Source: Actinobacteria bacterium HGW-Actinobacteria-2 (GTDB lineage Bacteria > Actinomycetota > Actinomycetes > Propionibacteriales > Propionibacteriaceae). From it: a stretch of 51,624 nt of DNA. The stretch lies in NCBI GenBank assembly GCA_002841335.1, contig PHEY01000012.1:1-51624 (forward strand), written 5' to 3'. This document shows, piece after piece, positions 101 through 19,559 of this stretch. How positions within the stretch are numbered: the first letter of the stretch is position 1; each line of letters opens with the position of its first letter. The notes beneath the pieces are model-generated. The model saw nothing but the letters and a program-made list of their open reading frames with translations. It was not told where the DNA came from and did no database searches. Both the position numbers and the translations under genes were made by a program.

Positions 101-706
101 CTAGTCGCGCCGCTCGGCCCGCAGAGCGCGCTGCACGCCGGTAAGGACGTCTCGCAGGGCGGCCTCTGCCTCCAGTGAACCCGGCTGAGTGCCGGCGAGA
201 ATCCCGGACAGGCCGTGGACGGCCGCCCAGGCGATCGTGGTGGCCGAGTCGGCCAACGCGGGGTGAACCTCACCGAGTTGATCGAGCTCGTCCAGGGTCT
301 GCGACAGCAGCGTCCAGGGGTCTGGGGAGTCCGGTCGGGTCGGCGCCACCTGGCAGGAGTGGAAGGCCGTGGCGAACCAGCCGGGCTCGGCCAGGGCGAA
401 CTCCACATAGGCCCGCCCACAGGCGCTCAACCGCGTCCAGGCGCGCTCGCGCGGATCGGCGAGGTCGACGGCGTCCATCGCGGTGAGCATCCGGGTGGCG
501 AGCAGTTCGCGCGCTTGCTGCGCCACCGCAGCCACGAGGTGCTCCAGTGAATCGAAATGCCGGTAGGGAGCGGTCGCGCTGACCCCGGCCGCTTTGGCGA
601 GCTCGCGCACACTGATCGCGGCCGGGCCACCGGTGCGCGCGGCGTCCAACCCGTGGCTGATCAGGGCCTGGGTCAGGTCGCCGTGGTGGTAGGGGCGCTC
701 GCTCAT
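101..706 (-). CDS. TetR-family transcriptional regulator
   Basis: The 201-residue protein has an N-terminal TetR DNA-binding domain (about residues 10-60, with a helix-turn-helix reading VRELAKAAGVSATAPYRHF) and a C-terminal ligand domain resembling the TetR_C_33/WHG type (EFALAEPGWFATAF). It is divergent from the flavodoxin-fold oxidoreductase at 788, and the 81-bp gap is almost filled by a dyad repeat (721-769). It therefore probably represses the oxidoreductase and itself. The inducer is unknown. The gene ends in TAG within CTAG, directly beside the left IS copy: the insertion left the reading frame intact but removed the native downstream sequence. Confidence 0.9.
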   Translation of the reverse strand: MSERPYHHGDLTQALISHGLDAARTGGPAAISVRELAKAAGVSATAPYRHFDSLEHLVAAVAQQARELLATRMLTAMDAVDLADPRERAWTRLSACGRAYVEFALAEPGWFATAFHSCQVAPTRPDSPDPWTLLSQTLDELDQLGEVHPALADSATTIAWAAVHGLSGILAGTQPGSLEAEAALRDVLTGVQRALRAERRD

Positions 707-720
707 CGGCGTCAGCCTAG

Positions 721-769
721 CTGTGTTGACAGTGTAAACATCGGTGGTATGTTAACACCGTCAACACAG
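721..769. promoter_or_regulatory. Dyad operator between tetR-type gene and oxidoreductase
   Basis: Two 21-nt arms (721-741 and 749-769) form an inverted repeat with two mismatched pairs around a 7-nt spacer. Each arm is itself a near-palindrome of 17 bp (724-740 and 750-766, pattern TGTTnACA-n-TGTnAACA), so the site looks like two operators about 26 bp apart, suited to two TetR dimers. It overlaps the predicted promoter of the rightward gene. Binding by the neighbouring TetR protein is inference from position. Confidence 0.8.
726..753 (+). promoter_or_regulatory. Predicted promoter of the flavodoxin-fold oxidoreductase
   Basis: A consensus -35 TTGACA (726-731) is followed after 16 nt by TATGTT (748-753) as a -10. 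Transcription would start near 760, about 28 nt ahead of the ATG at 788. Both boxes lie inside the dyad operator, as expected for a TetR-repressed promoter. Confidence 0.6.
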
Positions 770-787
770 TATTGGGGGACTTCGGCG

Positions 788-2077
788 ATGAAAAAGGCAC
801 TGATCCTGGACGGCTCGTCCGCCGGCGATGCCACCGGCGAGCGGGTAGCACGTGCGCTGGCGTCCGCCCTTGCCGCACGCGGCGTCGAGGCTGAAGTGGT
901 CACGTTGCGCGAGTGCCGCATCGGCGCCTGCGCCGGCGATTTCGGCTGTTGGCTCAAGCATCCCGGGGTCTGCATGACCGAGGACGACAATCGCCGGCTG
1001 ACCGCAGCGGTCATCAACAGCGACCTGGTGGCCTACCTCGGCCCGATCACTTTCGGCGGGTGGGCCCCGCAACTCAAGCGGCTCATCGACCACCAGATAC
1101 AAAACATCTCCCCGCTCTTCCTTCGGGTGGACGGCGAGACCCATCACCGCAAGCGCTACCCGCGCTACCCCGACCTCCTCGCCGTTGGTTGGCAGGACGG
1201 TCCGAATCCCGGCGAGGCCGCAACCTTCACTCGCCTGGTGGCGCGCAACGCCATCAACTTCCACGCGTCGGCCTCGGTCGCAGCCCTCATCGACGCCGAC
1301 GACCACAACTTCGCTACCGAGGAGTGGTTGGACGCACTCGAACGCGGCGAGCGGGTGCGCGTCAGTGGGAGCCTGGTGCCTCCCGGTGTCGCCGGCGTCG
1401 CGCCCGAGCGTGCCGTCCTGCTGGTCGGCAGCCCACGGCTGCGCTCCAGTAGTTCCTACGCGCTGGGCCGCCATCTCCTCGACCGCCTGGAGGCCGCCGG
1501 CATTCAGACCAGTGCGGTGATGATGCATCCCGCCGCCCGGTCGGCTGGGCGCACGGCTGCATTGATCGAGCAGGTCGATGCCGCCGATCTGGTGCTGCTG
1601 GCCGCCCCGCTGTACGTGGACGGACTGCCGGCCCCGGCCCTGGAGGTGATGGCTTCGCTTCAGCGTCACAGTCAGGCCCACGCCAGACGCAAGCGATTGG
1701 CCGCCATCGTGAACTCCGGCTTCCCCGAAGCCGCCCAGAACCACACCGCTTTGGCCATCGCTGCCCACTTCGCCGACCGCTCCGGCTGGGAGTGGGCCGG
1801 CGGGCTGGCGATCGGCGGCGGTGAAGGATTGATCCATGGGGTCGCGCCCAGCCAAGCAGGGGGACGAGCTCGTCCGGTGGTGGCTGCCCTCGACGTGAGT
1901 GCCGCCGCCCTCGCCGACGGCAAGGCGATTCCGGCGCAGGCTGTCGATCTGGCTGCCCGCAGCGTGATTCCCGCCTGGCTGTACCGCGCTGTGGGCACCC
2001 TGGGCTGGCGCAGTCAGGCCCGGGCCAACGGTGCTGCCTCCGACTTGGCCGCCCAGCCCTACCTCGCCTCCCACTGA
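788..2077 (+). CDS. Tandem flavodoxin-fold NAD(P)H-dependent FMN reductase-like protein
   Basis: The 429-residue protein contains two flavodoxin-like domains. The N-terminal half (about 1-190) starts KKALILDGSS and carries a Cys cluster (CAGDFGCWLKHPGVC then DD) of the type in iron-sulfur flavoprotein/FMN reductase families. The C-terminal half (about 195-429) starts again with a flavin-binding pattern, AVLLVGSPRLRSSSSYALG, followed by a second YVDGLPAP loop. The ATG at 788 is preferred because GGGGGA lies upstream and the fold begins there. It probably reduces flavins, quinones or small electrophiles with NAD(P)H under control of the divergent TetR repressor; the substrate is unknown. Confidence 0.8.
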   Translation: MKKALILDGSSAGDATGERVARALASALAARGVEAEVVTLRECRIGACAGDFGCWLKHPGVCMTEDDNRRLTAAVINSDLVAYLGPITFGGWAPQLKRLIDHQIQNISPLFLRVDGETHHRKRYPRYPDLLAVGWQDGPNPGEAATFTRLVARNAINFHASASVAALIDADDHNFATEEWLDALERGERVRVSGSLVPPGVAGVAPERAVLLVGSPRLRSSSSYALGRHLLDRLEAAGIQTSAVMMHPAARSAGRTAALIEQVDAADLVLLAAPLYVDGLPAPALEVMASLQRHSQAHARRKRLAAIVNSGFPEAAQNHTALAIAAHFADRSGWEWAGGLAIGGGEGLIHGVAPSQAGGRARPVVAALDVSAAALADGKAIPAQAVDLAARSVIPAWLYRAVGTLGWRSQARANGAASDLAAQPYLASH

Positions 2078-2238
2078 GCTGGACGATGAGCGCGCAGGCG
2101 CCCGGGTTACAACGGGCTCTGGTCGTCCTGCCGTCCTGATCGGGCGCGTGAGTGTAGGGCAGGTTCGGCCGCCGACCGGACGGTGCCGGAAGTAGCTGTG
2201 CTGACGCGCACGGACCCGGGCAGGAATAGCCTGGTGTC

Positions 2239-3216
2239 ATGAGTCCAGCCAGCGTGCAGACAGCGAACTTGGCCAATTCGAAGCTTTCGGTCGTGGGGGC
2301 CGGATCGGTGGGTACCTCGATTGCCTATGCGGCGCTGATCAGAGGTTCGGCCCGCCAGATCGCCCTCTACGACATCGACGAGAAGAAGGTGAACGCCGAG
2401 GTCCACGACCTCGCGCACGGCACCCAGTTCACGCCGACGTCCGTTGTCAGTGGCGGTTCCGACATTGAAGTGGTGGCCAACTCGTCGGTGATCATCATCA
2501 CCGCCGGGGCTCGACAGAAGCCTGGGCAGACGCGGCTGGAGCTGGCCGAGGTCAACGCCAAGATCATGACCGAGCTCGTGCCCAAGCTGCTGGAGCAGGC
2601 ACCGAACGCGGTGTTGGTGCTGGTCACCAATCCCTGCGACGTGCTCACGGTGGTCGCTCAGAAGGTCAGTGGCCTCCCGGCCGGACGAGTGATCTCGACC
2701 GGCACCCTGCTCGATACGTCCCGGTTGCGGTGGGCCATCGCCAAGCGAGCCGAAGTGTCGCTGTCCAATGTGCATGCGGCGATGTTCGGCGAACACGGGG
2801 ACACCGAGTTCCCGATCTGGTCGTCGGCGTCGATCGCGCAGATCCCGATCCGGGATTGGACCGACTCCGACGGTCGCCGACCCTTCACCGAAGAGGTGTT
2901 GGCCCAGATCGCCTACGACACCATTCATGCCGCCTACGAGATCATCGAAGGCAAGGGTGCGACCAACTATGCGATCGGCCTGGCCGGCGCCCGCCTGGTG
3001 GAGGCGCTCCTCGCCGACCAGCGCAAGATCTGGCCGCTGTCCAGCGTGCTCACCGACTACCGCGGGGTGTCCGGAGTGGCCCTGAGCGTGCCCAGCCTGG
3101 TCGGGCCGTCCGGTATCGAACGCGTCTTCGAGTTCCCGATGGACGCCCACGAGATCCGCATGCTGCACACCTCTGCGGCCGCGATCAAGGCCACCCTGGG
3201 CAAGATCGGCTACTGA
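2239..3216 (+). CDS. ldh: L-lactate dehydrogenase
   Basis: The 325-residue protein interconverts pyruvate and L-lactate with NADH in the cytoplasm. The Rossmann motif GAGSVGTS lies at 20-27. The substrate loop reads ARQKPGQTR, with Gln at the position that separates lactate from malate dehydrogenases (Arg in MDH). The catalytic His is H186 in [16 protein letters not shown] is also typical of LDH. Length is normal for the family. The first 12 or so residues before KLSVVGAG are a short extension. It stands alone, with repeats downstream. Confidence 0.95.
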
Positions 3217-3242
3217 CGCGACCTCCTGGCGGGACGTGCCGG

Positions 3243-3426
3243 GTTTCGACACGCTCGCCTTCGGCTCCCTGCTCAACCAGCGGCGGTGGTTTGCCGGCGG
3301 ACTGGGTGGCAGCGCCAAAGAAGCCGCTGGTTGAGCAGCTAGAGCGCCGCTGGTTGAGCAGCGGCGTAGCCGCGTGTCGAAACCGGGGCCTGGGGTTTTG
3401 GCCCTTCGACAGGCTCAGGGTGCGCC
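3243..3426. repeat. Intergenic palindromic repeat cluster (REP-like), copy 1
   Basis: Between the convergent ldh and hydrolase genes lie TTTCGACACG...GCTCAACCAGCGG (3244-3283) and its inverted partners CCGCTGGTTGAGCAGC (3324-3339), CCGCTGGTTGAGCA (3347-3360) and CGTGTCGAAACC (about 3373-3384). A related CTTCGACAGGCTCAGG follows near 3403-3419. The inverted arrangement could fold into a long hairpin and act as a bidirectional terminator. Relatives occur at 28988, 44071 and 48579. Confidence 0.85.
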
Positions 3427-3430
3427 AAGC

Positions 3431-5002
3431 TCACCCGGCGAGGTCGAAGGCCTCGCGCACATCGGCTCGGATTCGCTCGACGACGCCGACGCGGGTGCGC
3501 CGGGCGAACATCGGATGGTCGATCGTGGGCACGTCCACCAGGACGATCCCGGGGAGGCGCTGGCTGATCTCCGGTCCGCCCAGGCGCCGGAACACCTCCT
3601 GGTCGATCTCGCTGAAGATCAGCGTCGTCCGCCAGGTTCGCTTCGACAGACCGGTCAAGAACGCAGCCGGGTCGGCTTTGGAGCCGGTGCGGGCACGCAA
3701 CCGACGCAGCCAGGCCGGCGCCCAGCGACGATACATTCGCTGGACCCACAACATCACCCGTCCGCTGACCTCGCGCGGCATCACGACTTCCTCGACGAAC
3801 TCGTTCGGTGCGGCCGGGTCGACCCGGTACTCCAGCGGATGAATCCCGACCACCAGACGCGGCTCGGCCGCAGTCGGCAGCCCGGCCATCCAGGCACCGG
3901 CGCACAGCCCGGTCAGCGCCAGCCGCTCCCCGGTCACACCGGACGCCTGGACGATCGCATCCTGATCCTCAAGCCAGGCCTGGGTGTAGAACAGGCTCGG
4001 CTCGTCGGCTGACACCTCGCCGGTCTCACCGGCGCCACGCCGATCCACCCGCAGCGACCCGGCACCGTCACCGGCCAGGAGTCGGGCGAGTTCGACCTGG
4101 TAGTCCCCGGCACCCACTCGATGCTCCGAGGCACCGGCATGCAGCACCACCATCGGAGTCGCCGGGGTGGCCGCCTTGGGAAGGCATTCGATGGCGAACA
4201 ACCGCTGCGGCCCGATCCAGCGGACCCGCTCAACGGCGTTGCCGAGATCGAGCTCGTCGGCAACCGGCGGTGCGCTCAGCACCTGAGCGGAGTCGATCAC
4301 CCGAGCAGCCAGCCAGTCGACGATGGTGGCGATGATCTCGGTCGGCATCACCGAACTCACGCTGGAGGTGTCCAGGAACTCCGCGGTGCCGGCCAGCTCG
4401 AGTTGCTCGGCTGCGGCCAGTGCGGACGGCGCCGACTCGCCGGGACGACGCACGACCAGGGCGTCCGCTTCCCCGGGCAGGGTGAGCGAGATGCTCGCCA
4501 GGGCGGTGGCCTGGTCAGGGGTCAGGTCGATCCCGATCAGCGACTCGACGCCCTCAAAGGTGCGATCGGCGCCGATCATGATGGTGGCCAGCGAGCGAGC
4601 GCGCCGCAGCCACTGACGCCCCGATTGCGGCGGGCTCCACAGCACGACCAAGTCACCGGGCTCAGCCGCTGCACTGGCCAGCAGGGCAGCTGAGGAGAGT
4701 CCGACGAACGCCACCTGGGTGCAGCCGGCAGCCCGCAGCAACGCCGCAGCCGAGCGAGCGCCGTTCACCGGCGCCTGCGGGTCATCGCTGGGCGCACCGT
4801 CGCCGCGTCCGGGCGGGTCGTAGCGCACCGAGGCGATGCCGCGCTGTTCCAGCTGGTCGGCCAACAGGCGCAGGCCGCGATAGGCGACCACTCCCTCTTG
4901 GCCCAGCGGCGTGCAAATGACCACGCCGAGCGAGCCGGCAGTGGGCAGTTGAACCGCAGCCCAGATCGCCGGGTCGCCGAACCACCCGTGGTGCCTAGCC
5001 AT
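3431..5002 (-). CDS. Tandem alpha/beta-hydrolase protein of the aminoacyl-carrier operon
   Basis: The 523-residue protein has two alpha/beta-hydrolase-like domains. In domain 1 (about 20-235) the nucleophile elbow is GLSSA (S103), but no obvious catalytic His follows, so it may be inactive. In domain 2 (about 270-523) the elbow is GLCAG (C367), with D467 and H496 (DHPMF) as likely partners, giving a Cys-Asp-His triad. Start: ATG at 5002 overlaps the ligase stop by 8 nt (ATGGCTAG), indicating translational coupling; an in-frame ATG at 5023 would lie deeper inside the ligase gene. The Cys nucleophile suggests acyl transfer or thioester cleavage of a carrier-bound product. Function is inferred from context. 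Confidence 0.8.
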   Translation of the reverse strand: MARHHGWFGDPAIWAAVQLPTAGSLGVVICTPLGQEGVVAYRGLRLLADQLEQRGIASVRYDPPGRGDGAPSDDPQAPVNGARSAAALLRAAGCTQVAFVGLSSAALLASAAAEPGDLVVLWSPPQSGRQWLRRARSLATIMIGADRTFEGVESLIGIDLTPDQATALASISLTLPGEADALVVRRPGESAPSALAAAEQLELAGTAEFLDTSSVSSVMPTEIIATIVDWLAARVIDSAQVLSAPPVADELDLGNAVERVRWIGPQRLFAIECLPKAATPATPMVVLHAGASEHRVGAGDYQVELARLLAGDGAGSLRVDRRGAGETGEVSADEPSLFYTQAWLEDQDAIVQASGVTGERLALTGLCAGAWMAGLPTAAEPRLVVGIHPLEYRVDPAAPNEFVEEVVMPREVSGRVMLWVQRMYRRWAPAWLRRLRARTGSKADPAAFLTGLSKRTWRTTLIFSEIDQEVFRRLGGPEISQRLPGIVLVDVPTIDHPMFARRTRVGVVERIRADVREAFDLAG

Positions 5003-5921
5003 GGACCGCCCACAGCACGGCACGGACGTCGGCCGGCCACAGCTCGGGGTCCATCCCGTGCCGCGCGAACAGCGCGATCACGGTGCGTTCCATCCCCAAG
5101 CCCAGGCAGGCGGTGTGCGCCACGTCACCGTCGGCGTCGAAGATGCCGAACGCCGTGCCGAAGTGGTCGTTGTGGTAGTTCGCCGAGCCGATCGCAGTGG
5201 GTGCGACGTCGGGACCGTAGACATGGGTCACGATCTCGTACTTCAGGGCGGCTTCCCGCTGGCTGGCGGCCATGATCCGTCCGGTCCGACCGAAGAAGGG
5301 GTCGTTCGCAGGGACGTAATCCACCTCCAGACCCAAGGAATCGAGCATGGCGGCCAGGCGCGGCGCAGTCTCGTCGCGGTGCTCCATCGCGGAGTCGGCA
5401 TTCCCGGCGTGGACGAACTCGTGCATCCGGAAGGTCTGCATCCGCATCGGATCCGGGCTCGGCTCGTGCCTGAAGCAGCTGCCGAGGATGTCGAACCGAC
5501 GTCCACCCGCCGGCAGCGTCCCGGTGAGGATCGCGTACAGCGGATGGCAGGCGGCAGGGCTCATCATCAGGCCGGCAGGCTCCAGGTGGCCCTCCCAGTC
5601 CTCGCCGCTGGCACGGGTCTTGAGCAGTTCGGCATGCTCGGCCGTGCCGCCGGTGAACACCGACAGCGAACCGGTCAGCTGCGGGAACGACGCGACGTAG
5701 TCGGTCTTCTCGAACACCGACTTCGGCTCGACCGGAGGGAAGCGCCACACCTCGGCGTCCAGGTTCGCGAAGGTGCGCACGTACAGCGCGTCCAAGGCTT
5801 CGAATACGGCGGTGAACCGGCTGCCGAGGGCGAACATCCCCGGCTCACCGAGTTCGGCCAGCACTCCGTCAGCCAACAGGCGCTGCCGGAGTGCCGACCA
5901 GGTCGGCTCAGGGCTACTCAC
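4995..5921 (-). CDS. Amino acid:[carrier protein] ligase (class II aaRS homologue)
   Basis: The 308-residue protein resembles the catalytic core of seryl-tRNA synthetase without a tRNA-binding arm. Visible class II motifs are motif 2 (FRHE at 150-153, then QTFRMHEFV) and motif 3 (GLGMER at 274-279). C125 (SPAACHPLY), E168 and C272 fit the Zn-ligand pattern of the family. Characterised relatives such as Bradyrhizobium Bll0957 adenylate a small amino acid and load it onto the phosphopantetheine arm of a dedicated carrier protein instead of tRNA. The GTG start forms a GTGA overlap with the upstream flavoprotein stop. The matching carrier gene lies in the same operon. The amino acid used cannot be read from the sequence. 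Confidence 0.9.
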   Translation of the reverse strand: MSSPEPTWSALRQRLLADGVLAELGEPGMFALGSRFTAVFEALDALYVRTFANLDAEVWRFPPVEPKSVFEKTDYVASFPQLTGSLSVFTGGTAEHAELLKTRASGEDWEGHLEPAGLMMSPAACHPLYAILTGTLPAGGRRFDILGSCFRHEPSPDPMRMQTFRMHEFVHAGNADSAMEHRDETAPRLAAMLDSLGLEVDYVPANDPFFGRTGRIMAASQREAALKYEIVTHVYGPDVAPTAIGSANYHNDHFGTAFGIFDADGDVAHTACLGLGMERTVIALFARHGMDPELWPADVRAVLWAVHG

Positions 5922-7066
5922 AAGTCGACTTTCGCCATCAGCGACAGCGGCGAGTTGTTGGTGAGCAGCCGATCGTTGTTGATCTGGATCGGGGCGCCCA
6001 ACGCATCGCGGATCTGCCGCGACAGCGACTGCGGGGTATCGGTGCGGTAGCCCGCGATCCCGACGATCCGCAGTGCCTTCATCACCAGATCGACCACCGC
6101 ATTGGCCGAGGTCACCTTGATCGCGTTCATCGCCATCGCGAACGAGATCGAGCCGAGCGCGTCGGGGTCGTCGCTGATGCGATCGAAATGCTCTGCCTGG
6201 TGGCGGACGGAATCAGCGAACGACTGCAGGTCGATCATCAACTCGGCCAGCCGGATCTGTCCCGGCGGCGGGAACCCCACCGACGAGCGGGCCTGGCGAC
6301 GGACGGTCGACCGCGCCTGGTCGACGGCCGCGGAGGCGATGCCCAACCACACCGAGGACCACAGCAGGTGAGCCGTCGGCAGTGCGGTGTGTGCCGAGAT
6401 CGTGCCGTAGTCGTCGTCCAGCAGCATGTCTTCACTGGTCTCGGCACTGAGGATGAAGCTGTCGGACGCGGTGCCACGCAGGCCGAGCGCCTGCCAGGTG
6501 CCGGTCTTGCGCAGCTGGTAGTCGCCCTTGGGGCAGATCAACATACGCTGGTCGGACGCCGGTGCCTCGGCGTTCATGCGTCCGGTCACCAAGATGGCGT
6601 CGGCGGCCTCGGCGTAGGAGATCACCGGAGCGTCCTTGACCACCTTGACCCGGCCGGGGCTGGGGTAGGTGAAGGCGCAGTTGGAGCGACGGGCGTCGCC
6701 ACCGATGCCGCGCTCGGTGGTGGCCGAACCGAGCAGCCACTCCTCCTCCAGCACCTGACGCATGGTGCGCCGAACCCCGGCCTTGGTGCCGTGCCGCCAC
6801 AGGATCAGCGCCTGGCTGTGATGCATGGCGAAGACCATGCCGGCGTTGGCGTCGGCCGCGCCGATGGTGGTGGCGATCTGGCTGAGTTCCAGCATGCTGG
6901 CGCCCTCGCCGCCGTGCCGGGTGGGCACCGAGACCGACAACAGGCGCTGTTCCTTCAGCGCCTGGACGGCTTCCAGTGGGGGTCGAGCGTTGGAGTCGAC
7001 CTCGTCGGCGTACTTGGCCGCTACGGCGGCGACTGCCGCGGCGCGCGCGGCGAACCGTTCGCTCAT
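5918..7066 (-). CDS. Acyl-CoA dehydrogenase-like flavoprotein
   Basis: The 382-residue protein has the acyl-CoA dehydrogenase layout: helical N-domain (HGGEGASMLELSQ), central beta domain (WLLGSATTERG, WQALGLRGTASDSF) and C-terminal helical domain. Where classical members end in an EGT-like loop bearing the catalytic Glu, this one reads PIQINNDRLLTNN, so the usual base appears absent; a related oxidase or group D-type monooxygenase chemistry is possible. Its ATG overlaps the carrier-protein stop (ATGA) and its own stop overlaps the ligase start. In context it likely oxidises the aminoacyl group while bound to the carrier, by analogy with prolyl-carrier oxidation in pyrrole formation. This is inference. 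Confidence 0.85.
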   Translation of the reverse strand: MSERFAARAAAVAAVAAKYADEVDSNARPPLEAVQALKEQRLLSVSVPTRHGGEGASMLELSQIATTIGAADANAGMVFAMHHSQALILWRHGTKAGVRRTMRQVLEEEWLLGSATTERGIGGDARRSNCAFTYPSPGRVKVVKDAPVISYAEAADAILVTGRMNAEAPASDQRMLICPKGDYQLRKTGTWQALGLRGTASDSFILSAETSEDMLLDDDYGTISAHTALPTAHLLWSSVWLGIASAAVDQARSTVRRQARSSVGFPPPGQIRLAELMIDLQSFADSVRHQAEHFDRISDDPDALGSISFAMAMNAIKVTSANAVVDLVMKALRIVGIAGYRTDTPQSLSRQIRDALGAPIQINNDRLLTNNSPLSLMAKVDL

Positions 7067-7326
7067 CGTTCCCCCCGGGACATGCCGACCGCGTGGGCCA
7101 GAGCGTCGATGGAAACGAAAGTGGACCGGTTGAGCAACTCGTCGGGGAACTCGATCCCCAACGCGTCCTCGATCGCCAGCATGACATTCACCGTCGCATG
7201 CGAGGTGAAACCAGCGGCGAAAAGGTCGGCCTCGTCGCTCAGATCGGACACGGCTTGATTGAGCCGTCCAAACTGCTGGAGCGCCTCGCGAATGGCCAGG
7301 CGATCTCCGTAGGTGTTATCAGACAC
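7063..7326 (-). CDS. Dedicated aminoacyl carrier protein
   Basis: The 87-residue acidic protein has the four-helix carrier-protein pattern DLFAAGFTSHATVNVMLAIE. S42 in GFTSH is the predicted phosphopantetheine site (usual motif GxDSL; the TSH variant is seen in carriers paired with amino acid:[carrier protein] ligases). The GTG at 7326 is chosen because a purine-rich GGGGGAG lies a suitable distance upstream; the frame stays open further up, but that part reads as the end of the previous gene. It overlaps the upstream synthase (end 7319) and the downstream flavoprotein (ATGA). Confidence 0.88.
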   Translation of the reverse strand: MSDNTYGDRLAIREALQQFGRLNQAVSDLSDEADLFAAGFTSHATVNVMLAIEDALGIEFPDELLNRSTFVSIDALAHAVGMSRGER

Positions 7327-7774
7327 CGTCACTCCCCCTTTGTTGTGTTGTGTCTTCGTCCGCCGGTGCGTCATCCGAGAACGCAATGGCGGTGGCTAGT
7401 GCAAGACCCCGCTCGTGACTGAGTGAGATCGCAATCGGACCGAGTCGTTGCTGGTCAGCGACCCGCTGGGCTTTCGGCGACAACTGGACGTGCGGCGCAC
7501 CATCGCGGTCGGTGACGACCTCGATCTCGGTGTAGCCGATTCCGGACGTCGTCCGCAGGACCTTGTACACCGCTTCCTTCGCGGCGAATCGAGCGGCCAA
7601 GCGCTCGGGCGTCCGTTGGCTCTGGGTGAGTTCGGTATCGGTGTAAACCCGCCGCAAATAGCGATCACCAAAAAAGTTGATTGATTCCGCGACCGCATCG
7701 ACGTCGGTCAGGTCGCACCCGATCCGTGCCATGCCCAGCGACTTCGTGCCGCCGTCGGCGCGGTTGCGAAGCAT
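7319..7774 (-). CDS. Holo-[acyl-carrier-protein] synthase-like phosphopantetheinyl transferase
   Basis: AcpS-type enzyme that moves 4'-phosphopantetheine from CoA to a carrier-protein Ser. Visible family motifs are GCDLTDVDAV (Mg-binding Asp), RFAAKEAVYKVL (catalytic Glu-Lys region) and SLSHERGLALATAIA. The ATG at 7774 has a good GAGGTGG upstream; a start at 7732 (MARIGCDL) would match the usual AcpS length better, so the start is open. It is first in the five-gene operon and overlaps the carrier gene, so it probably serves that carrier; it may also be the cell's general AcpS. Confidence 0.9.
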   Translation of the reverse strand: MLRNRADGGTKSLGMARIGCDLTDVDAVAESINFFGDRYLRRVYTDTELTQSQRTPERLAARFAAKEAVYKVLRTTSGIGYTEIEVVTDRDGAPHVQLSPKAQRVADQQRLGPIAISLSHERGLALATAIAFSDDAPADEDTTQQRGSDGV

Positions 7775-7955
7775 TTGGCCACCTCAATCGGGTCATTTCG
7801 ATGGATCGGGCTTCATCGTAGGGCATTCCCTCCAGGACCGCGCCTGGCCGAAGTGTGTGACCTGGTGGGCGGCGGTGTTGGATCGAGCCGCTCAGAGCGG
7901 CCATGATTGGCTACCGATGGCGCAACGCGGGGGCGGCCCATCGGGGAGGACGGCG

Positions 7956-8306
7956 ATGGTCTGGGTGCTGGTGGGGGTGACAGCCGCCGTGCTGAGCGTC
8001 CTTGCCGCCATGGGTGTCGGGCTTGTCGATGAATTGCGGCGCCCGCCGTCCAATGTTCGACGGATGGGTACGGGCTTGGCCTTGGTCGCCGGTTTCGCCG
8101 GTATCTGGCTGCTGGTCACCCCGATCACCGCAGCTGATGGCGTCGGCTGTGCGGCGCCGGTGCTGGTGCTCGCCGAGTACGGCACACCACCGGTGTTGGT
8201 GGCCGATGGCTGCTCGGATCCGATGCGGCTCAATGCCGTGTTCGGCCTGGTTTGCGCGGGGCTGTCACCGGTGGCGGTGCTCGCCACGCGCAGCCGCCGC
8301 GACTGA
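7956..8306 (+). CDS. Small membrane protein, unknown function
   Basis: The 116-residue protein has hydrophobic segments near residues 1-20 (VWVLVGVTAAVLSVLAAMGVG), 36-52 and 95-110, with a Cys-containing loop of about 40 residues between the last two (GVGCAAPVLVLAEYG...DGCSD). The ATG at 7956 is preferred because GGGGAGGA lies 5-6 nt upstream; the frame is open further 5' but codes nothing recognisable. It is divergent from the aminoacyl-carrier operon. I do not recognise a family. Confidence 0.65.
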   Translation: MVWVLVGVTAAVLSVLAAMGVGLVDELRRPPSNVRRMGTGLALVAGFAGIWLLVTPITAADGVGCAAPVLVLAEYGTPPVLVADGCSDPMRLNAVFGLVCAGLSPVAVLATRSRRD

Positions 8307-8469
8307 CGCTCCACCTCTCGCCCCCGACGAACCGACGCGATCGGTGGTGTGGCCCGCCGCCGTCCAGCCTGCGAAAACCGCTGTATCGGTCGGTGGGTAG
8401 CCCGCCGTAGAAACCCACCCGCCGCGGCGGTGGTGTGTCAAGATGGCTCGGGCTACGCGAAGGAGTGAC

Positions 8470-10164
<1,695 letters not shown>

Positions 10165-10180
10165 GGCGCGGCAGCCACTC

Positions 10181-10729
10181 CTAGGTGACGAAGTCGGCGA
10201 CGATTCCGTCAGTGAACTCGGGTGTGACGCTCGCAACGCACTCCTGGTAGCCGGCCAGGACCCACTTGTCGATCTGCCACTGTGAGGTGGCGACGTCGTA
10301 ACAGTTGTCGACGTCGCCGTAGGCAGAGATCGCTTGGGCGGTGGCCACGCCGTTGACCACCGAGAACACCAGGCTGTCAGCGTCGTCAGCGCTGCCGTCG
10401 ACCCAGTACTTGCCCGGCTTTTCGCCGGCGAAGGACGGTGGCAGGGCGGCGACGAGCTTGCCGTTGCGCCAGGTGTAGACCTTCCACTCGGGGTCTTCGC
10501 CTTCGACGACGTAGGCCAACTCGGTTCCCGGGACGCCGTCGAAGTGGGCTGCGCCCAGGAGCGGGTTGCCGTTCACGGTGTAGATGGTCTTGGACAACTT
10601 CTTGCCCGTGGCGGTGACGATTTTGGTCACGTAGTGGGTGGAGTCGGCGCTGTAGTAGGTGAAGCGATCCAGCGCGCCGTCACCGTCGAGGTCGGAGCGG
10701 AACTGGCAGGGCGAATCGAAACGATGTTC
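10181..10729 (-). pseudogene. Truncated DxDGDG-repeat protein (second module only)
   Basis: The frame is open from 10729 to the stop at 10181 and matches the second module of the neighbouring 394-residue paralogue: SDLDGDGALDRF, TKIVTATGKK, FDGVPGTELAY, YTWRNGKLV. It lacks a signal peptide and first module. No ATG, GTG or TTG lies ahead of the DLDGDG loop; the first possible start (GTG 10630) is already past it, and an in-frame TGA stands at 10732-10730. It is best read as a remnant left by deletion or unequal recombination in the tandem array. Confidence 0.7.
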
Positions 10730-10795
10730 TCACCAGCTGCAGCGGATAGTTCTCCCCACCTGCCTCACCGGAGCGGTCGGCCGGTGGAGGCCCTC

Positions 10796-10848
10796 ACGCA
10801 GACGCGGCCCGAACACCCCGCTGAGGGGTGCGCGGGCCGCGTCTGCGT
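10796..10848 (-). terminator. Terminator-like hairpin after the DxDGDG-repeat gene
   Basis: A perfect 16-bp stem (10796-10811 with 10833-10848) encloses an inner CACCCC/GGGGTG hairpin. It begins 3 nt beyond the stop codon of the minus-strand gene ending at 10852. No clear T-tract follows. Confidence 0.75.
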
Positions 10849-10851
10849 TGC

Positions 10852-12036
10852 TCAGAGTTGGGTGACGTCCACGCCGCAGAAGCTGCGGCACAACGTGCCG
10901 ACTTCCGACTCAGTGACGGTCGTGGTCCAGGTGTTCTGCCTGACCCAAGCGCCGGAGATCCACAGGTAGCGCCACCAGGTGACGGTGATGGGGTCGCCTC
11001 CGGTGCTCTTGCTGTTCGTGATCACCTGCCATTGGCCATTGACCAGGGCGAGGTCGTAGCCCTCATTGAACTGCTCGGGCGAGCGCAGCCAGGTGGGATT
11101 GCCCTCCGGTGAGGGTGAGACGACCAACTTGCCCTTGCGAACCGTCAGGACCTTCCAGCTGTACCCGTCGCCGTCGATGTAGGCGAGCTCAGAGCCGGGC
11201 ACTCCATCGATCCCTGCGATCAGCGGGGCATCGCCGAAGTCCTGGTTGTGGATGGTCCGGGTGATGACCTTGCCCTTGGCGGTGACGATCTTGGTCTGCG
11301 TCCGTTCGCCGGCCAGCAAGCGGTAGGAAACGGTGTCGAGCTTGCCGTCGCCGTCCATGTCGACCTTGGCCTGGTTCAACAGGATCGACGGGGCCTGAAG
11401 GTCGGTGTAGTAGTCCGTCTTTGAGGCCGACAGCTTCACCGAACGAGTCGAAACCTTGACCCACTTCCCACCTCGCCACACCGAACGGACGATCTTGGCC
11501 CGAAGGCCGCTGCTCGTGCCGGCCAGGGCGAGCTTTGCGACATCGACATAGGCTCGACCGTGGGAGGTAAGGAATCGGATCGCTTGGGCGCTGCCGGTCC
11601 ACCAACCCGCGCGTGTCGAAGGCGAGGCCGGGGCCGCTTCGGCGACCAGGGCACCCTTGCGCCAGGTGTAGACCGCGAAGCCGCCGGAAGCGTCAGGCGT
11701 TGAGGTCCGCACGATGAGTTCGGCGCCCTTGACGCCGTCCAGCCTGGCCGCTCCACCCCAGACCGAGCGGGACTCGAGCGGGTCGGTTGAGCCGAAAGTG
11801 ACCGCAGCGGTGGACTTCGCGGTGACCACCTTGAGTTCGTACTGGGTGCCGCCGAGGGCGGTGACGGTGACGGTGTCGGCCTTGCCGTCTCCGTTGACAT
11901 CGACCCGGACGGTCCGCAGGACTGTCGGGGTCGCCGGTTCGGCGGGTTGAACCGGGCTCGCCTGAGCGGGTGTGCTGATCGCTCCGCAGGTCAACGCCAG
12001 GGCAGCTGTGGTTGTGCCGACCACAATCCTTCTCAT
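10852..12036 (-). CDS. Secreted two-module DxDGDG (VCBS/FG-GAP-like) protein
   Basis: The 394-residue protein has a signal peptide (MRRIVVGTTTAALALTCGA, cleavage near AQA) and two related modules. Module 1 (about 35-200) starts VDVNGDGKADTV; module 2 (about 225-394) starts VDMDGDGKLDTV. Both Asp-rich loops resemble Ca-binding EF-hand-like or FG-GAP loops. Each module contains a GVKGAEL/GVPGSEL stretch and a TWRKG/TVRKG strand, as in beta-propeller-type repeats. It ends with a Cys pair, LCRSFCGVDV. The start at 12036 follows AAGGGG. Function unknown; extracellular Ca-dependent binding is inference. It sits in a tandem array with three relatives. Confidence 0.8.
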   Translation of the reverse strand: MRRIVVGTTTAALALTCGAISTPAQASPVQPAEPATPTVLRTVRVDVNGDGKADTVTVTALGGTQYELKVVTAKSTAAVTFGSTDPLESRSVWGGAARLDGVKGAELIVRTSTPDASGGFAVYTWRKGALVAEAAPASPSTRAGWWTGSAQAIRFLTSHGRAYVDVAKLALAGTSSGLRAKIVRSVWRGGKWVKVSTRSVKLSASKTDYYTDLQAPSILLNQAKVDMDGDGKLDTVSYRLLAGERTQTKIVTAKGKVITRTIHNQDFGDAPLIAGIDGVPGSELAYIDGDGYSWKVLTVRKGKLVVSPSPEGNPTWLRSPEQFNEGYDLALVNGQWQVITNSKSTGGDPITVTWWRYLWISGAWVRQNTWTTTVTESEVGTLCRSFCGVDVTQL

Positions 12037-12123
12037 CGTGTCCCCTTGCATAGTGAATTGTGTTCTCCGGGCCTCAGGCTAGCCAGCCACCCCAAGGCTG
12101 TCCACGTCCGCGGGCGCATTCGA

Positions 12124-12153
12124 TGGCGCACTGGGAACCGTCCCCGTGCGCCA
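12124..12153. repeat. Inverted repeat containing GGGAACCGTCCCC
   Basis: Perfect 8-nt arms TGGCGCAC (12124-12131) and GTGCGCCA (12146-12153) flank a loop containing GGGAACCGTCCCC. The same core occurs as a larger inverted pair at 45867-45936. It is intergenic, between two minus-strand paralogues. It resembles REP-type sequences. Confidence 0.6.
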
Positions 12154-12173
12154 CCGAACGATGACCGGAGTGA

Positions 12174-12812
12174 CTAGGTGGTGATCGGTCCGCAGTTGAA
12201 GCCGATGTAGGCGTCCGCCTTCGCGGTGCTCAGCTTCACCTTGCGGGTGCTGATCTTCACCCAATGCCCACCTGACCAGACCGAACGGATGATTTTTCCC
12301 GACCACACCGTGCTGGAAGCGTTGGCGATCAGGTTGGACACGTCGATGTAGCGCCTGCCCTTGGAGGTGAAGCACTTGTAGCCCTGAGCTCCCAGATACC
12401 AGCCCTTCACCAGCGGTGCGACCGGAGCCTTCTCTTTCACCAGAGCGTTGGCGCGCCAGGTGTACACGCTGAAGCCGACGCCATCGCCGCCCCAGTTGTA
12501 GACCATCAACTCCGCACCCTTGACCTTGTCGAGCGCCACTGCGCCGAACCACGGGCTGGGCTCGCCCCAGTCGGCCGGGAAGCTGGAGGTGAAGAACACT
12601 CCCGAAACCCGAGTGGCGGTGGTCACCTGCAGCAGGTACTTGGTCTCGGTGTACTTGATCACTTCGACGGTGTCGGCGACTCCATCTCCATCGACGTCGA
12701 CCGAAACCGTGTTGAGAACCGTGGTAATCGGGATCGCATGCGCGGGTGGCGAGCTGAAGCCGAGAATGACGGCAGCGCTGCAGGCAATGGCGGCAAGACG
12801 ACGAAGAAACAT
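12174..12812 (-). CDS. Secreted single-module DxDGDG protein (first module type)
   Basis: The 212-residue protein has a signal peptide (MFLRRLAAIACSAAVILGF, cleavage after AHA) and one module starting VSVDVDGDGVADTV. It closely parallels the first half of the 394-residue neighbour, including KIIRSVWSGGHWVKISTRKVKLS, and stops where that protein's second module would begin. The ATG at 12812 has AAAGGAG upstream. Role unknown; it belongs to the same array and was probably produced by module loss or duplication. Confidence 0.78.
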   Translation of the reverse strand: MFLRRLAAIACSAAVILGFSSPPAHAIPITTVLNTVSVDVDGDGVADTVEVIKYTETKYLLQVTTATRVSGVFFTSSFPADWGEPSPWFGAVALDKVKGAELMVYNWGGDGVGFSVYTWRANALVKEKAPVAPLVKGWYLGAQGYKCFTSKGRRYIDVSNLIANASSTVWSGKIIRSVWSGGHWVKISTRKVKLSTAKADAYIGFNCGPITT

Positions 12813-12934
12813 GCCAACTCCTTTGCTGGACGGGCGCCGGGCGGCGTCCGACACAGCCATCCTCGCGCTCGCGGCGGCCGGAGGGAACCCGATCAACGGG
12901 CTTTTACCCAGCCCAGCTCAGGGATGCGGTCGGC

Positions 12935-13588
12935 TCACTTGCGGGTGAGCGGCACCATCGTCACGCCGCAGAAGGTGGCACACAACGACGCCTCTTGCTC
13001 GGTGCTGAGAATCTCGGTCCAGGTGCGTTGCGCAGCCCACGCCCCAGACACCCAGGCGTATTCGACGAAGGTCACCTCGCCGGCGGACTCACCGCCCGTC
13101 TCGGAGGTGAAAAGCTTGAGCGTGCCGTCCTTCACCGAGAATGCGTAGCCGGTGTTCTCGCCGAACTCGTCACCGGTGATCCAGTTCGGCTTCCCCTTCG
13201 GCGAGGGTACCGCCACCAGACCGCCGTCGCGCCAGGTGAGCACCCGGTAGCTCAGACCCTCCTCGGGTCCGCTGTAGATCACCTCTGCGCCCGGAACCGG
13301 ATCGAGCGGAGCCAGCCCGGCAAACTCCGGATCGTCAGGTCCACCAGCGCTGTCGAAGACGTGCCGAGCGGTGCCACTGGCGGTGACCACAGTGAGTTCC
13401 CATTTGCCCTTCACCTTCCGCTGAGTGAGGGAGTCGGCGACGCCGTCGCCATCGATGTCGAACGGGACGTCGGGCTTCGATGGGGTCGAGGCTCCCGTCG
13501 ATGGACTGGACGGCGCGGCTGCCGGGGCGGCTGCGCAACCGGTGACTACCAGCGAGAGCAGCAACAGGCCGATCGGACGTGAGCGCAT
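12935..13588 (-). CDS. Lipoprotein with one DxDGDG module (second module type)
   Basis: The 217-residue protein starts MRSRPIGLLLLSLVVTGC, a lipoprotein signal with lipobox VTGC, followed by a Ser/Pro/Ala linker. The single module begins FDIDGDGVADSL, and it ends in a Cys pair (LCATFCGVTMVPL) matching the end of the 394-residue neighbour (LCRSFCGVDVTQL). It is therefore the membrane-anchored, second-module counterpart in the array. ATG at 13588 has GGGAG upstream. Probably exposed at the outer face of the membrane; function unknown. Confidence 0.8.
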   Translation of the reverse strand: MRSRPIGLLLLSLVVTGCAAAPAAAPSSPSTGASTPSKPDVPFDIDGDGVADSLTQRKVKGKWELTVVTASGTARHVFDSAGGPDDPEFAGLAPLDPVPGAEVIYSGPEEGLSYRVLTWRDGGLVAVPSPKGKPNWITGDEFGENTGYAFSVKDGTLKLFTSETGGESAGEVTFVEYAWVSGAWAAQRTWTEILSTEQEASLCATFCGVTMVPLTRK

Positions 13589-13657
13589 GAGGTCTCCCAT
13601 CAGGGGTGGTGCCCCCGAGGATAGCCATCCACCGAAATCAACGGTCGCAGAAAGCCA

Positions 13658-13689
13658 CCAGCCCGGCCGCCGTGTGGCAACCGGGCCGG
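13658..13689 (-). terminator. Terminator-like hairpin after citrate synthase
   Basis: Arms GCCCGG and CCGGGC, extended by CC/GG and by an inner GCC-GTGT-GGC, fold into a stem 22 nt downstream of the gltA stop on the minus strand. The stem contains small bulges and internal mismatches. Confidence 0.55.
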
Positions 13690-13710
13690 TAGTGCGTCGA
13701 AACAGTGAAC

Positions 13711-14994
<1,284 letters not shown>

Positions 14995-15664
14995 CCATGC
15001 TCCCTATCTGTCAGGCGGACGCGGCGGCGCCCAGCTCGATGGTGGACGTCACCTTACATCGCGGGTGAGGTTCCGGGGAGGGGCCAATCTCAGGGGTGGT
15101 CGAACCGTTAATTGGTCTATCAAAGTCCCTGGAGGATTGTCGGCGGTAACGACTTTGCAAGGACATTCTTCCAATATTTGTGTCGAGTGATCGACACCAT
15201 CTCGCCTAATCGGGGCCACCTTGACCGCCCGATGACCGCCTCCGGAGCGTCATTTCAGCCGGTCGGAGCTCGATTTCGGAGATGTCGTTTCTTCCAGCAG
15301 GGCGACCAGCCTCGCCACGGACTCCTCCTGGGCATCGCCTGGCCCGGTCCGTGCTCCGTCGTCGGCTCGGGCGCCGAGCCTTCACGATCCCCTATCGAGT
15401 CAGATGATCGCCCCATTGCCATACAGAGAATTGCTCAGCCCTGGGCCATATCGGATGTCGGGCCGGCATCGGTTTGTTCACAGGAGAGTGGGGCAAGCAC
15501 GGGCGCCCTGCCGGTTTCCTCAAGACCAGCGCCTGTTCCCTGCAGGCGCTACGCCAGGAGAGCCCGCCCGCCAGCGGTCCCTGGCGGGGGTCGCCTTCGG
15601 AGGTGCAGTCGTGGGATTGCTGCCGAGGGTGGCCCCGCCCATATCGACCCCATAGGCTCGGACC
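14995..15664. other. 670-bp gltA-fur intergenic region with hairpins
   Basis: No convincing gene is visible. The part near 15105-15185 is AT-richer and may hold promoters. Three perfect inverted repeats are seen: GTGTCGA/TCGACAC (15180-15197), GCGCCTG/CAGGCGC (15529-15549) and CCCGCCAG/CTGGCGGG (15567-15588). The last two stand in tandem about 80-135 nt ahead of the Fur-family start and could form a structured leader. No known riboswitch class was recognised. Confidence 0.5.
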
Positions 15665-16171
15665 GTGAACGACGGCACCGTACTGATGGACTCCGTGGCG
15701 GCATTGCTACGGTCCAAGGGCGAGCGCATGACCGCACCGCGGCGCGCGGTCCTGACGGCGTTGTCGAATGCCACCGGGCACTTGTCGATGGAAGAAGTCG
15801 TCACCGCCGTCGCGGAGTCGGCGCCGTCGGTCCATCGAGCCAGCGTGTACCGAACCTTGGTGGCCCTCAGTGATCTGGGAGTCGTGCAACACGTCCACCT
15901 CGGGCACGGCGCGACGGCCTACCACCTCACCGGTGCCGAAGGTCCCCATCTGCACGCACAGTGCCGCCGTTGCGGCGCGATCCAGGACCTGCCCAACGAT
16001 CTGCTCAGCGAGGTGGCCCGAAGGATGGGTGCAGCTCACGGCTTCGAGTTGGACGCCACGCACGTGGCGCTCTCCGGGCTCTGCGCGGAGTGTGCTGCCA
16101 TCGATGGCGATGACCACATTGTCGATGAACTGCCGACCGATCACCGCCACGGCCATCATCACTCGCACTGA
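15665..16171 (+). CDS. Fur-family metal-responsive regulator
   Basis: The 168-residue protein has the Fur winged helix (SVHRASVYRTLVALSDLGVVQHV) and a dimerisation domain with two structural CxxC pairs (CRRC and CAEC), plus the metal-site pattern GPHLHAQCRRCG. It could be Fur, Zur or a related sensor; family members of this length with two CxxC pairs are often Zur. The C-terminus is unusually His-rich (DHRHGHHHSH), which may bind Zn or Ni. The start is GTG at 15665. No target operator was recognised in the window. Confidence 0.9.
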   Translation: MNDGTVLMDSVAALLRSKGERMTAPRRAVLTALSNATGHLSMEEVVTAVAESAPSVHRASVYRTLVALSDLGVVQHVHLGHGATAYHLTGAEGPHLHAQCRRCGAIQDLPNDLLSEVARRMGAAHGFELDATHVALSGLCAECAAIDGDDHIVDELPTDHRHGHHHSH

Positions 16172-16200
16172 TCTGCCCGCACGGGAGCAGTCAGCGGACC

Positions 16201-17448
16201 TCAGGCGTTGACGCCGACGGCGGCGCGAGCGTCCGCCAAAGCCTCCACGAAGGCGTCCAGAGCCTGGTCGAGCTCGCCCTTGGTGATGATCAGCGGCGGG
16301 GCCAACCGCACGGTCTGCCCGTGGGTGTCCTTGGCGATCACACCCTTGGTCAGCAGGCGCTCACACAGGTCACGTCCGCTGCCCAGCGCCGGATCGATAT
16401 CGACCCCCGCCCACAACCCGACTCCGCGGACCGCGGTCACCCCGTGCCCGATCAGCTCCGCGAGCCGGGCGTGCAGATGGGCGCCGAGTTCGCGGGAATG
16501 AGCCTGCGGCTCGCCGGTCTGCAGCAGCCGGACGACGGCCAAACCGACCGCGGCCGCGAGCGGATTGCCGCCGAACGTCGAGCCGTGCTGGCCCGGACGC
16601 AAGGTGCCGAGCACGTCGGCATTGCCGACCACGGCCGACACCGGCACGATCGCGCCACCGAGAGCCTTGCCGAGAAGGTACAGGTCAGGAACCACCCCGG
16701 CCTGCTCACAGTAGAAAGTGGTGCCGGTGCGGCCCAGCCCGGACTGGATCTCGTCGGCGATCATCAGCACCCCGCGGGCAGCGGTCAGCTCGCGCACCCC
16801 GGCCAGGTAGCCCGGCGGCGGCACGATCACACCCGCCTCGCCCTGCACCGGTTCGACCAGGACCGCGACGGTGTGATCATCGATGGCCGCGGCGAGGGCG
16901 TCCAGATCGCCGTAGGGCACGGGGACGAAGCCTGGGGTGAAGGGGCCGTAACTGGTGGTGGCGACCTCGTCGTTGCTGAAGGAGATGACGCTGATCGTCC
17001 GGCCGTGGAAGTTGCCCTCCATCACGATGATCCGGGCCTGATCCTCGGGCACACCCTTGACCTCATAGCCCCACTTGCGGGCCAGCTTCAGCGCCGACTC
17101 GACGGCCTCGACGCCGGTGTTCATCGGCAGCACCATCTCCTTGCCGCACAACTCGGCCAGCGCCTGGATGAACGGACCGTAGGTGTTGGAGTAGACCGCG
17201 CGGGAGGTGATCGCCAGGTGTTGGAGCTGCTCGGTGGCCACGGCCACCAACTCCGGGTTGGAGTGCCCGAAGTTCACCGCGGAGTAGGCCGAAAGGAAGT
17301 CCAGGTAGCGGTTGCCGTCGATGTCGGTGAGCCACGCCCCAGCACCACTGGCGATCACGACCGGCAACGGATGGTAGTTGTGCGATCCGTAGGTCTCGAT
17401 CTGCTCGATCGCCCGCTGTTGGGTCGGGCTCTGTACCGGATCAACCAT
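16201..17448 (-). CDS. rocD: Ornithine aminotransferase (ornithine-oxo-acid transaminase)
   Basis: The 415-residue class III PLP aminotransferase transfers the delta-amino group of ornithine to 2-oxoglutarate, giving glutamate semialdehyde. PLP Lys is K261 (LLGKALGG) and the PLP-binding Asp is D232 (ADEIQSG). OAT signatures are YSNTYGPF and MNTGVEAVESALKLARKWGY. ATG at 17448 follows AAGGAG; the open frame to 17820 upstream is not coding. It links arginine/ornithine catabolism to proline and glutamate. No arginase gene is in the window. Confidence 0.93.
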   Translation of the reverse strand: MVDPVQSPTQQRAIEQIETYGSHNYHPLPVVIASGAGAWLTDIDGNRYLDFLSAYSAVNFGHSNPELVAVATEQLQHLAITSRAVYSNTYGPFIQALAELCGKEMVLPMNTGVEAVESALKLARKWGYEVKGVPEDQARIIVMEGNFHGRTISVISFSNDEVATTSYGPFTPGFVPVPYGDLDALAAAIDDHTVAVLVEPVQGEAGVIVPPPGYLAGVRELTAARGVLMIADEIQSGLGRTGTTFYCEQAGVVPDLYLLGKALGGAIVPVSAVVGNADVLGTLRPGQHGSTFGGNPLAAAVGLAVVRLLQTGEPQAHSRELGAHLHARLAELIGHGVTAVRGVGLWAGVDIDPALGSGRDLCERLLTKGVIAKDTHGQTVRLAPPLIITKGELDQALDAFVEALADARAAVGVNA

Positions 17449-17546
17449 GGTCCACTCCTTTTGACCAGAAGATGCTACCTGCCCCGATGCGGTCGAAGGG
17501 CCCGCTGGGGGAGCTTGTCGGCCCAGGGTGACGCTACAGTGCCGAC

Positions 17547-19551: not shown

Positions 19552-19559
19552 GGCTGCTC

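Follow-up and report, generated by a model that had tools for sequence, protein, structure and literature searches.

A five-gene aminoacyl carrier operon of an actinobacterium is accompanied by a second locus encoding a DUF1839 protein and a GH2 glycosidase

Bradyrhizobium Bll0957 is an amino acid:[carrier protein] ligase that activates glycine, and Atu2573 is the related ligase of Agrobacterium. Here we compare with these systems a five-gene operon of Actinobacteria bacterium HGW-Actinobacteria-2, which lies at 3431-7774 on the minus strand of a 51,624-base stretch of DNA (the whole of contig C14 of a 2.92-Mb genome, called the window below). The operon is real and conserved, and it belongs to a system that is already known but still unexplained. 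It does not stand alone; it is one half of a two-locus system, because a DUF1839 gene and a GH2 glycosidase gene elsewhere in the genome accompany it.

Much of this picture was predicted in a note in proof to Iyer et al. 2010 (PMC2922099), with which our analysis agrees. There the neighbourhood of a seryl-tRNA synthetase (SerRS) paralogue is described as a carrier, a redox enzyme, the ligase, the conserved but uncharacterised Atu2574 and a glycosidase, and an amide bond onto the amino group of a cell-surface sugar is predicted. The note offers no structure for the Atu2574 protein, mentions neither an alpha/beta hydrolase nor a transferase nor a split locus, and calls the redox enzyme a Rossmann fold. 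What is new here is the CcbD/CtaG-type fold, the flavoprotein link, the two-locus split with its extra transferase, the lost glutamate positions and the hydrolase residues. The gene numbered next to bll0957, bll0958, is listed as an acyl-CoA dehydrogenase in a table of PMC10888616. DUF1839 has been classed as papain-like with a C(T/S)H triad, and a role in acyl-CoA-dependent glycan processing has been guessed for it; the passages on it in the family list of PMC10318531 make no link to a ligase or carrier. Within the excerpts of the literature searched, we found no paper testing the pathway.

The operon and its junctions are as follows.

7319-7774, minus strand: AcpS-type 4'-phosphopantetheinyl transferase (PF01648, 49.8 bits; TIGR00516, 63.9 bits)
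7319-7326, minus strand: transferase/carrier overlap of 8 nt, GTGTCTGA
7063-7326, minus strand: carrier protein (aminoacyl carrier protein) of 87 aa with a GTG start (NF005480, 95.6 bits against a cut-off of 72)
7063-7066, minus strand: carrier/flavoprotein overlap, ATGA
5918-7066, minus strand: acyl-CoA-dehydrogenase-fold flavoprotein (Pfam Acyl-CoA_dh_N and Acyl-CoA_dh_1, alignment and model)
5918-5921, minus strand: flavoprotein/ligase overlap, GTGA
4995-5921, minus strand: amino acid:[carrier protein] ligase (NF005479, 370.6 bits against a cut-off of 357)
4995-5002, minus strand: ligase/hydrolase overlap of 8 nt, ATGGCTAG
3431-5002, minus strand: tandem alpha/beta hydrolase of 523 aa with an ATG start (partial, sub-cut-off matches to TIGR03101 and TIGR03100)

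The coordinates and family matches confirm the five genes, their order and the four junctions (8 nt, ATGA, GTGA, 8 nt) proposed in an earlier interpretation of the bare DNA (the sequence-only reading), and the family matches bear out its carrier, phosphopantetheinyl transferase and genuine ligase. In a profile scan of the operon proteins, ACPS, Acyl-CoA_dh_N, Acyl-CoA_dh_1 and PP-binding all scored above the Pfam cut-offs. The five genus relatives for which long stretches are available (L022, L024-L027) share the order transferase-carrier-flavoprotein-ligase-hydrolase, and the short contigs of L023 and L030, which hold only part of the operon, are consistent with it. Genes for fumarase and a lactate dehydrogenase-like protein flank the operon in the window and in three genus relatives (L024-L026).

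The ligase is a genuine member of the amino acid:[carrier protein] ligase family, because it exceeds the NF005479 cut-off and keeps the zinc ligands. It matches Bll0957 (3mey chain E) across residues 16-303 with an E-value of 1.8e-66, and its Cys125, Glu168 and Cys272, kept in 10/10 alignment rows, align with the zinc ligands Cys131, Glu176 and Cys279 of Bll0957. With 308 aa it is devoid of a tRNA-binding domain, and its match to the serine-tRNA ligase model of 518 positions is confined to positions 220-503. It is predicted to aminoacylate the neighbouring carrier. Gly274 aligns with an Ala of Bll0957; a call of amino acid specificity was rejected, as this single difference in the pocket region is insufficient for a prediction. 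A second ligase gene, 55% identical to that of the window, stands directly behind the hydrolase gene in one genus relative (L027:7721-8665; G146:C1, about 39.8-40.7 kb) and might load a second amino acid.

The carrier is likewise close to the described systems. Its phmmer matches include 4h2w chain C, named 'Aminoacyl carrier protein' (2.2e-18), and 2jq4, which is Agrobacterium Atu2571 (2.9e-18); at E <= 0.001 the PDB holds only two distinct sequences, Atu2571 and the aminoacyl carrier protein of 4h2w-4h2y. A longer open reading frame (ORF) starting with TTG (to 7386) was judged less likely than the GTG start; the carriers of L024, L025 and L027 have 87 aa and that of L022 has 89, and the carrier ORFs of L026 and L030 are longer (117 and 94 aa). 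In another genome (G118, L034:7584-9557), a carrier-like match falls inside an open frame of 657 aa that immediately precedes a distant ligase, perhaps as a fusion or a shadow frame.

Compared with the Bll0957 and Atu systems, the window operon adds an extra transferase and a hydrolase, and DUF1839 and GH2 lie at a second locus. The operon transferase was considered as the housekeeping AcpS and this was ruled out by a second AcpS gene (C1:36612), which lies directly behind a GlmS-like gene with SIS and GATase domains and amid ribosomal L13 and PGM_PMM (glmM-like) genes. Because of this second AcpS, we read the operon transferase as an extra copy, probably dedicated to the operon carrier.

The second locus emerged from the gene neighbourhoods of the ligase. 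We surveyed the best 80 of 574 confirmed stretches, ranked by likeness to the window ligase, so that the counts favour near relatives. The carrier occurs in 79 of these loci, the flavoprotein in 72 (in 72/72 on the same strand as the ligase), the hydrolase in 57 and a transferase in 55. Clustering of the neighbouring genes revealed DUF1839 and GH2 as two further recurrent partners; DUF1839 is present in 39/80 loci, and GH2 is adjacent to it in 33/33 loci that hold both. An annotated run of carrier, flavoprotein of the acyl-CoA dehydrogenase family, ligase, DUF1839, GH2/beta-mannosidase and hydrolase is found in Azospirillum brasilense, Azospirillum sp. B510 and Mycetohabitans rhizoxinica, and the gene set recurs across several phyla. 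In the window genome, DUF1839 lies on contig C1 (28,587-29,507, minus strand) with GH2 directly after it. The pair lies between a citrate synthase gene and a group that includes ribosomal L13 and glmM-like genes. The GH2 protein carries Glu491 in 18/18 and Glu410 in 17/18 rows, which, going by GH2 motifs, are presumably the acid/base and nucleophile pair.

The distribution of the two loci across genomes agrees. Within the genus, the eight genomes with the operon are exactly the eight with DUF1839, and the other 20 have neither, which contradicts the claim of the sequence-only reading that the operon is stand-alone. In the family sample, the ligase is matched in 15/198 genomes, namely 8/28 in the genus, G071, which has the near flavoprotein, and six that lack it; DUF1839 occurs in 9/198, exactly the nine with the ligase and the near flavoprotein. 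Hypergeometric probabilities are 3.2e-7 (8 of 28) and 4.7e-12 (9 within 15 of 198), both of which relatedness makes too small. DUF1839 was also found in 3/396 genomes of the phylum sample (one of them the window's own) and in 3/274 genomes of the class sample around G236, always together with the ligase and the near flavoprotein. It is present in 14 genomes of the three samples and never lacks the ligase there. In these samples DUF1839 tracks the flavoprotein, not the ligase alone, because 14/16 ligase-matching genomes that have the flavoprotein carry DUF1839 and 0/15 of those that do not.

That the two loci share an ancestry and have no joint function is highly improbable. Eight of the nine family genomes are from one genus, in which the two loci may share a history of loss or gain, and in L087 DUF1839 is found with no flavoprotein nearby. 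This explanation is countered by the single run of the same genes in other phyla, by the occurrence of DUF1839 only with the ligase in the three samples, and by seven Rhodococcus loci (L094, L096, L098, L099, L101, L107, L109) that lack DUF1839 in the stretch surveyed but in which it lies about 15-16 kb from the ligase, if contig coordinates agree, and not on another replicon.

The sequence-only reading had proposed a search for homologous operons and regarded its idea as refuted if the ligase occurred mostly without the flavoprotein and hydrolase. The search was run, and near relatives of the ligase mostly have both genes, as counted above, whereas only 16 of the 31 ligase-matching genomes have the flavoprotein (E <= 1e-20). 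The 31 include weak matches in G028, G629 and G832 (E 1e-6 to 5.9e-4) that are maybe not ligases; minus those, the count is 16/28. Therefore, the ligase family as a whole works also without the flavoprotein.

The structure of DUF1839 suggests what the second locus may contribute. The fold was read from an AF2 model of the L113 protein (pLDDT 91.9, 17-row alignment), to which the window genome's copy is 43% identical. At E <= 0.001, the model matches only AziU3/U2, CtaG and CcbD chains (16 rows; E 1.5e-6 to 4.2e-5, TM 0.54-0.65); by sequence, the L068 protein has no convincing relative in the PDB (best E 0.22). Cys30, His125, Thr129 and His146 are invariant in 17/17 rows, which makes Cys30 a candidate nucleophile and both His125 and His146 candidates for the catalytic histidine. 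According to the relevant passages of PMC12945683, CcbD takes proline from a carrier onto its own Cys and from there transfers it to the thiooctose amino group by a Cys-His-Glu ping-pong mechanism, and CtaG is described in part of PMC6772006 as a peptidyl transferase between two carriers. The likeness to CcbD/LmbD, CtaG and AziU3/U2 is one of fold. The CcbD triad of Cys-His-Glu differs from the C(T/S)H triad of DUF1839 given in the passages of PMC10318531 on it, and the lincosamide system loads its amino acid by LmbC/CcbC adenylation domains where a SerRS-like ligase is found here. Because the L113 fold is like that of CcbD and CtaG, and CcbD couples an amino acid held on a carrier with an amino sugar, DUF1839 is likelier than the hydrolase to be the transferase in the window genome; conserved residues and co-occurrence point the same way.

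We therefore propose an explanation for both loci, which we hold tentatively and with slightly less than even confidence. The operon would be the activation half of a two-locus pathway, in which the extra transferase would arm the carrier with phosphopantetheine and the SerRS-like ligase, judging from its family, would activate a small amino acid and load it as a thioester. The flavoprotein may then oxidise the carrier-bound aminoacyl group, either to an imine or dehydroamino acid with His233 as a possible base, or by hydroxylation. On the basis of its fold, conserved residues and co-occurrence, the papain-like DUF1839 would take the group onto its Cys and pass it to an amine, most likely that of an amino sugar or glycan intermediate, in the manner of CcbD. 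GH2 would then trim, or prepare, the sugar part, and the Cys-type hydrolase may clear misloaded carrier or perform a second acyl transfer. A bolder version is less likely than not: a widespread amide pathway free of non-ribosomal peptide synthetases (NRPSs), with loading by the ligase, a flavoprotein with a new catalytic base, and transfer by DUF1839 to an amino sugar handled by an apparently cytoplasmic GH2, would operate in at least four phyla (Actinobacteria, Proteobacteria, Planctomycetes and Acidobacteria by record titles) and yield a so far unobserved glycan or sugar conjugate.

The flavoprotein has the acyl-CoA-dehydrogenase fold both by its Pfam N and C domains and by its model (pLDDT 88.6). 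The positions of the catalytic Glu of medium-chain acyl-CoA dehydrogenase (MCAD) and isovaleryl-CoA dehydrogenase (IVD) were mapped onto it by HMMER alignment and not by structure. The MCAD position is Ile or Val and the IVD position Ala, Ser or Cys, each in 16/16 rows, and the invariant His233 adjoins the latter. Because neither usual catalytic Glu is present (0/16), the oxidation postulated by the sequence-only reading, a desaturation as on prolyl carriers, is doubtful; oxidation of whichever kind is likely. The best solved-structure matches of the model are the monooxygenases TdsC and DszC, with dehydrogenases close behind and TM about 0.8 to many structures. The protein may be a monooxygenase of the DszC/TdsC or DnmZ/KijD3 type, supplied with reduced flavin by a general reductase and hydroxylating N or C of the amino acid on its carrier. 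DszC also heads the single-sequence search, DnmZ and KijD3 are among the profile matches, the catalytic Glu is lost, and the 2010 note too guessed monooxygenation (PMC2922099). However, the profile search puts chains named acyl-CoA dehydrogenase first, the structural scores of both kinds are close, and no conserved reductase lies beside the operon. We consider a monooxygenase rather unlikely. An ORF at window 557-2077 with FMN_red and Flavodoxin_2 matches, between a TetR gene and a lactate/malate dehydrogenase gene, was rejected as the flavoprotein's partner; neither it (E <= 1e-10) nor the TetR gene has a homologue in the stretches of L022 and L024-L027. In the Mycobacterium relative L070 (8829-9961), the flavoprotein gene occupies two separate open frames, through a sequence error or as a broken gene.

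The hydrolase, whose residue numbers follow the 530-aa ORF (ORF tool start 5023) and not the 523-aa ATG protein, has no Pfam match at E <= 0.001. Its halves resemble the exosortase-A-associated hydrolases 2 (TIGR03101) and 1 (TIGR03100), in that order, far under the cut-offs (43.2/168.45 and 36.0/202.75 bits), and are here fused in one protein; no exosortase gene turned up, although no search aimed at exosortases was made. In the C half, Cys374 is present in 17/17 rows, and His503 (16/16) and Asp474 (15/16, Glu in the other) in the rows that reach there, L112 stopping short. Cys374, Asp474 and His503 form a candidate Cys-Asp-His triad, in keeping with the Cys-type domain anticipated by the sequence-only reading. 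The N half was ruled out as a second active site by its non-uniform nucleophile position (Ser 3, Ala 3, Gly 2 and Arg 9 in 17 rows; Ser in the window). The hydrolase could edit, release or transfer.

The sequence-only reading assigned the transfer to this Cys-type domain, after a prolyl-carrier-like desaturation by the flavoprotein and with no further partner. Acyl transfer does go with a Cys replacing Ser in certain alpha/beta hydrolases, PHA synthase among them; the C half has its invariant Cys with a conserved Asp/Glu and His, and five-gene sets occur in genomes lacking DUF1839 (Curtobacterium, L041), with hydrolases close to the window's. Transfer by the hydrolase is possible, yet the window genome has DUF1839, which tracks the operon and is the better candidate there, and the flavoprotein has lost both usual Glu. 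We therefore consider this scheme improbable, and the earlier interpretation as a whole to be half right and only partly supported.

Several observations weigh against the two-locus pathway proposed here. The search for DUF1839 covered 39 genomes. Of the 41 loci that have no local DUF1839, 36 were represented (L036-L040, the same contigs as the genus relatives G152, G138, G141, G146 and G143, were left out), together with L070, L087 and L113, which do have one. DUF1839 was found in 0/13 Curtobacterium genomes (L042-L053, L062) despite their ligase, flavoprotein and hydrolase, nor was it found genome-wide in L041, two Gordonia (L056, L067) and L095, which also have the three genes; the same holds for a Salinibacterium/Leifsonia/Rhodoglobus group (L061, L064, L071, L076, L086). 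Another transferase must therefore exist there, and the proteins nearest to the window's outside the genus are those of L041 and Curtobacterium. The lack of DUF1839 in Curtobacterium is the main gap in the model. In G229 (L080), DUF1839 is present only as a 46-residue fragment with a stop. Conversely, L087 has DUF1839 and GH2 beside the ligase and no flavoprotein in its 20.9-kb stretch (tblastn, E <= 1), the rest of its genome being unsearched. The likeness of DUF1839 to CcbD is remote (10-14% identity, rmsd 5.5-7.5), 8/14 co-occurring genomes come from one genus, so that the count of genomes exceeds that of events, and one supporting point is weakened by the Rhodococcus distances. Finally, the genes scanned next to the two loci of the window genome include no glycan cluster.

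The product could be a small metabolite in solution, such as an acylated amino sugar acting as a signal or antibiotic, and not a decoration of the cell surface. The nearest fold relatives CcbD, CtaG and AziU3 come from antibiotic pathways, and there is no annotated glycan cluster within 9 kb of the six-gene run in Azospirillum sp. B510 and Mycetohabitans, where the PLSDB gene table is incomplete. Set against this, no exporter or resistance gene is among the genes scanned beside the window operon, and other versions lie among sugar transferase, glycosyltransferase and polysaccharide genes. We judge a soluble product rather unlikely. In Salinibacterium L064, the operon genes are near a sugar-transferase-like gene, glycosyltransferases and a Polysacc_synt match just under the cut-off; in Tsukamurella, the ligase, carrier and transferase are inside an exopolysaccharide cluster, and flavoprotein and DUF1839 are not annotated in 18.9 kb of an incomplete gene table. 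These two versions, neither with DUF1839 nearby, count in favour of the proposed transfer to a sugar. Of the four neighbours scanned in Curtobacterium L043, one is a transport component, one is an alpha/beta hydrolase and one has no match; the fourth, a GH130 gene, is alone in its neighbour cluster and was not used as evidence.

The earlier remark that no NRPS module or transporter is nearby holds for the 10 window ORFs scanned (101-19641), the remainder of the window being unscanned. The last of these (18649-19641) encodes a protein with a T2SSF (type II secretion F) domain. The genome has two citrate synthase genes, one at window 13711-14994 and one near the DUF1839-GH2 pair (L125:4379-5656). 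L125:2564-4261 (G000:C1) encodes a protein of 565 aa with a C-terminal match to PF15644, a predicted glutamine-deamidase toxin domain, and is followed by a gene for a 256-aa protein with no Pfam match; homologues are similarly placed in L128 and partly in L129.

If the proposed pathway is true, it would give a purpose to an enzyme family, the amino acid:[carrier protein] ligases, that has none known. With DUF1839 named as the likely acceptor-side enzyme and GH2 as its usual partner, the question becomes reducible to a brief in vitro test needing no more than seven proteins. The pathway would then be a natural route to amides that dispenses with NRPSs and relies on a relative of the tRNA synthetases, a carrier and a transferase of papain fold.

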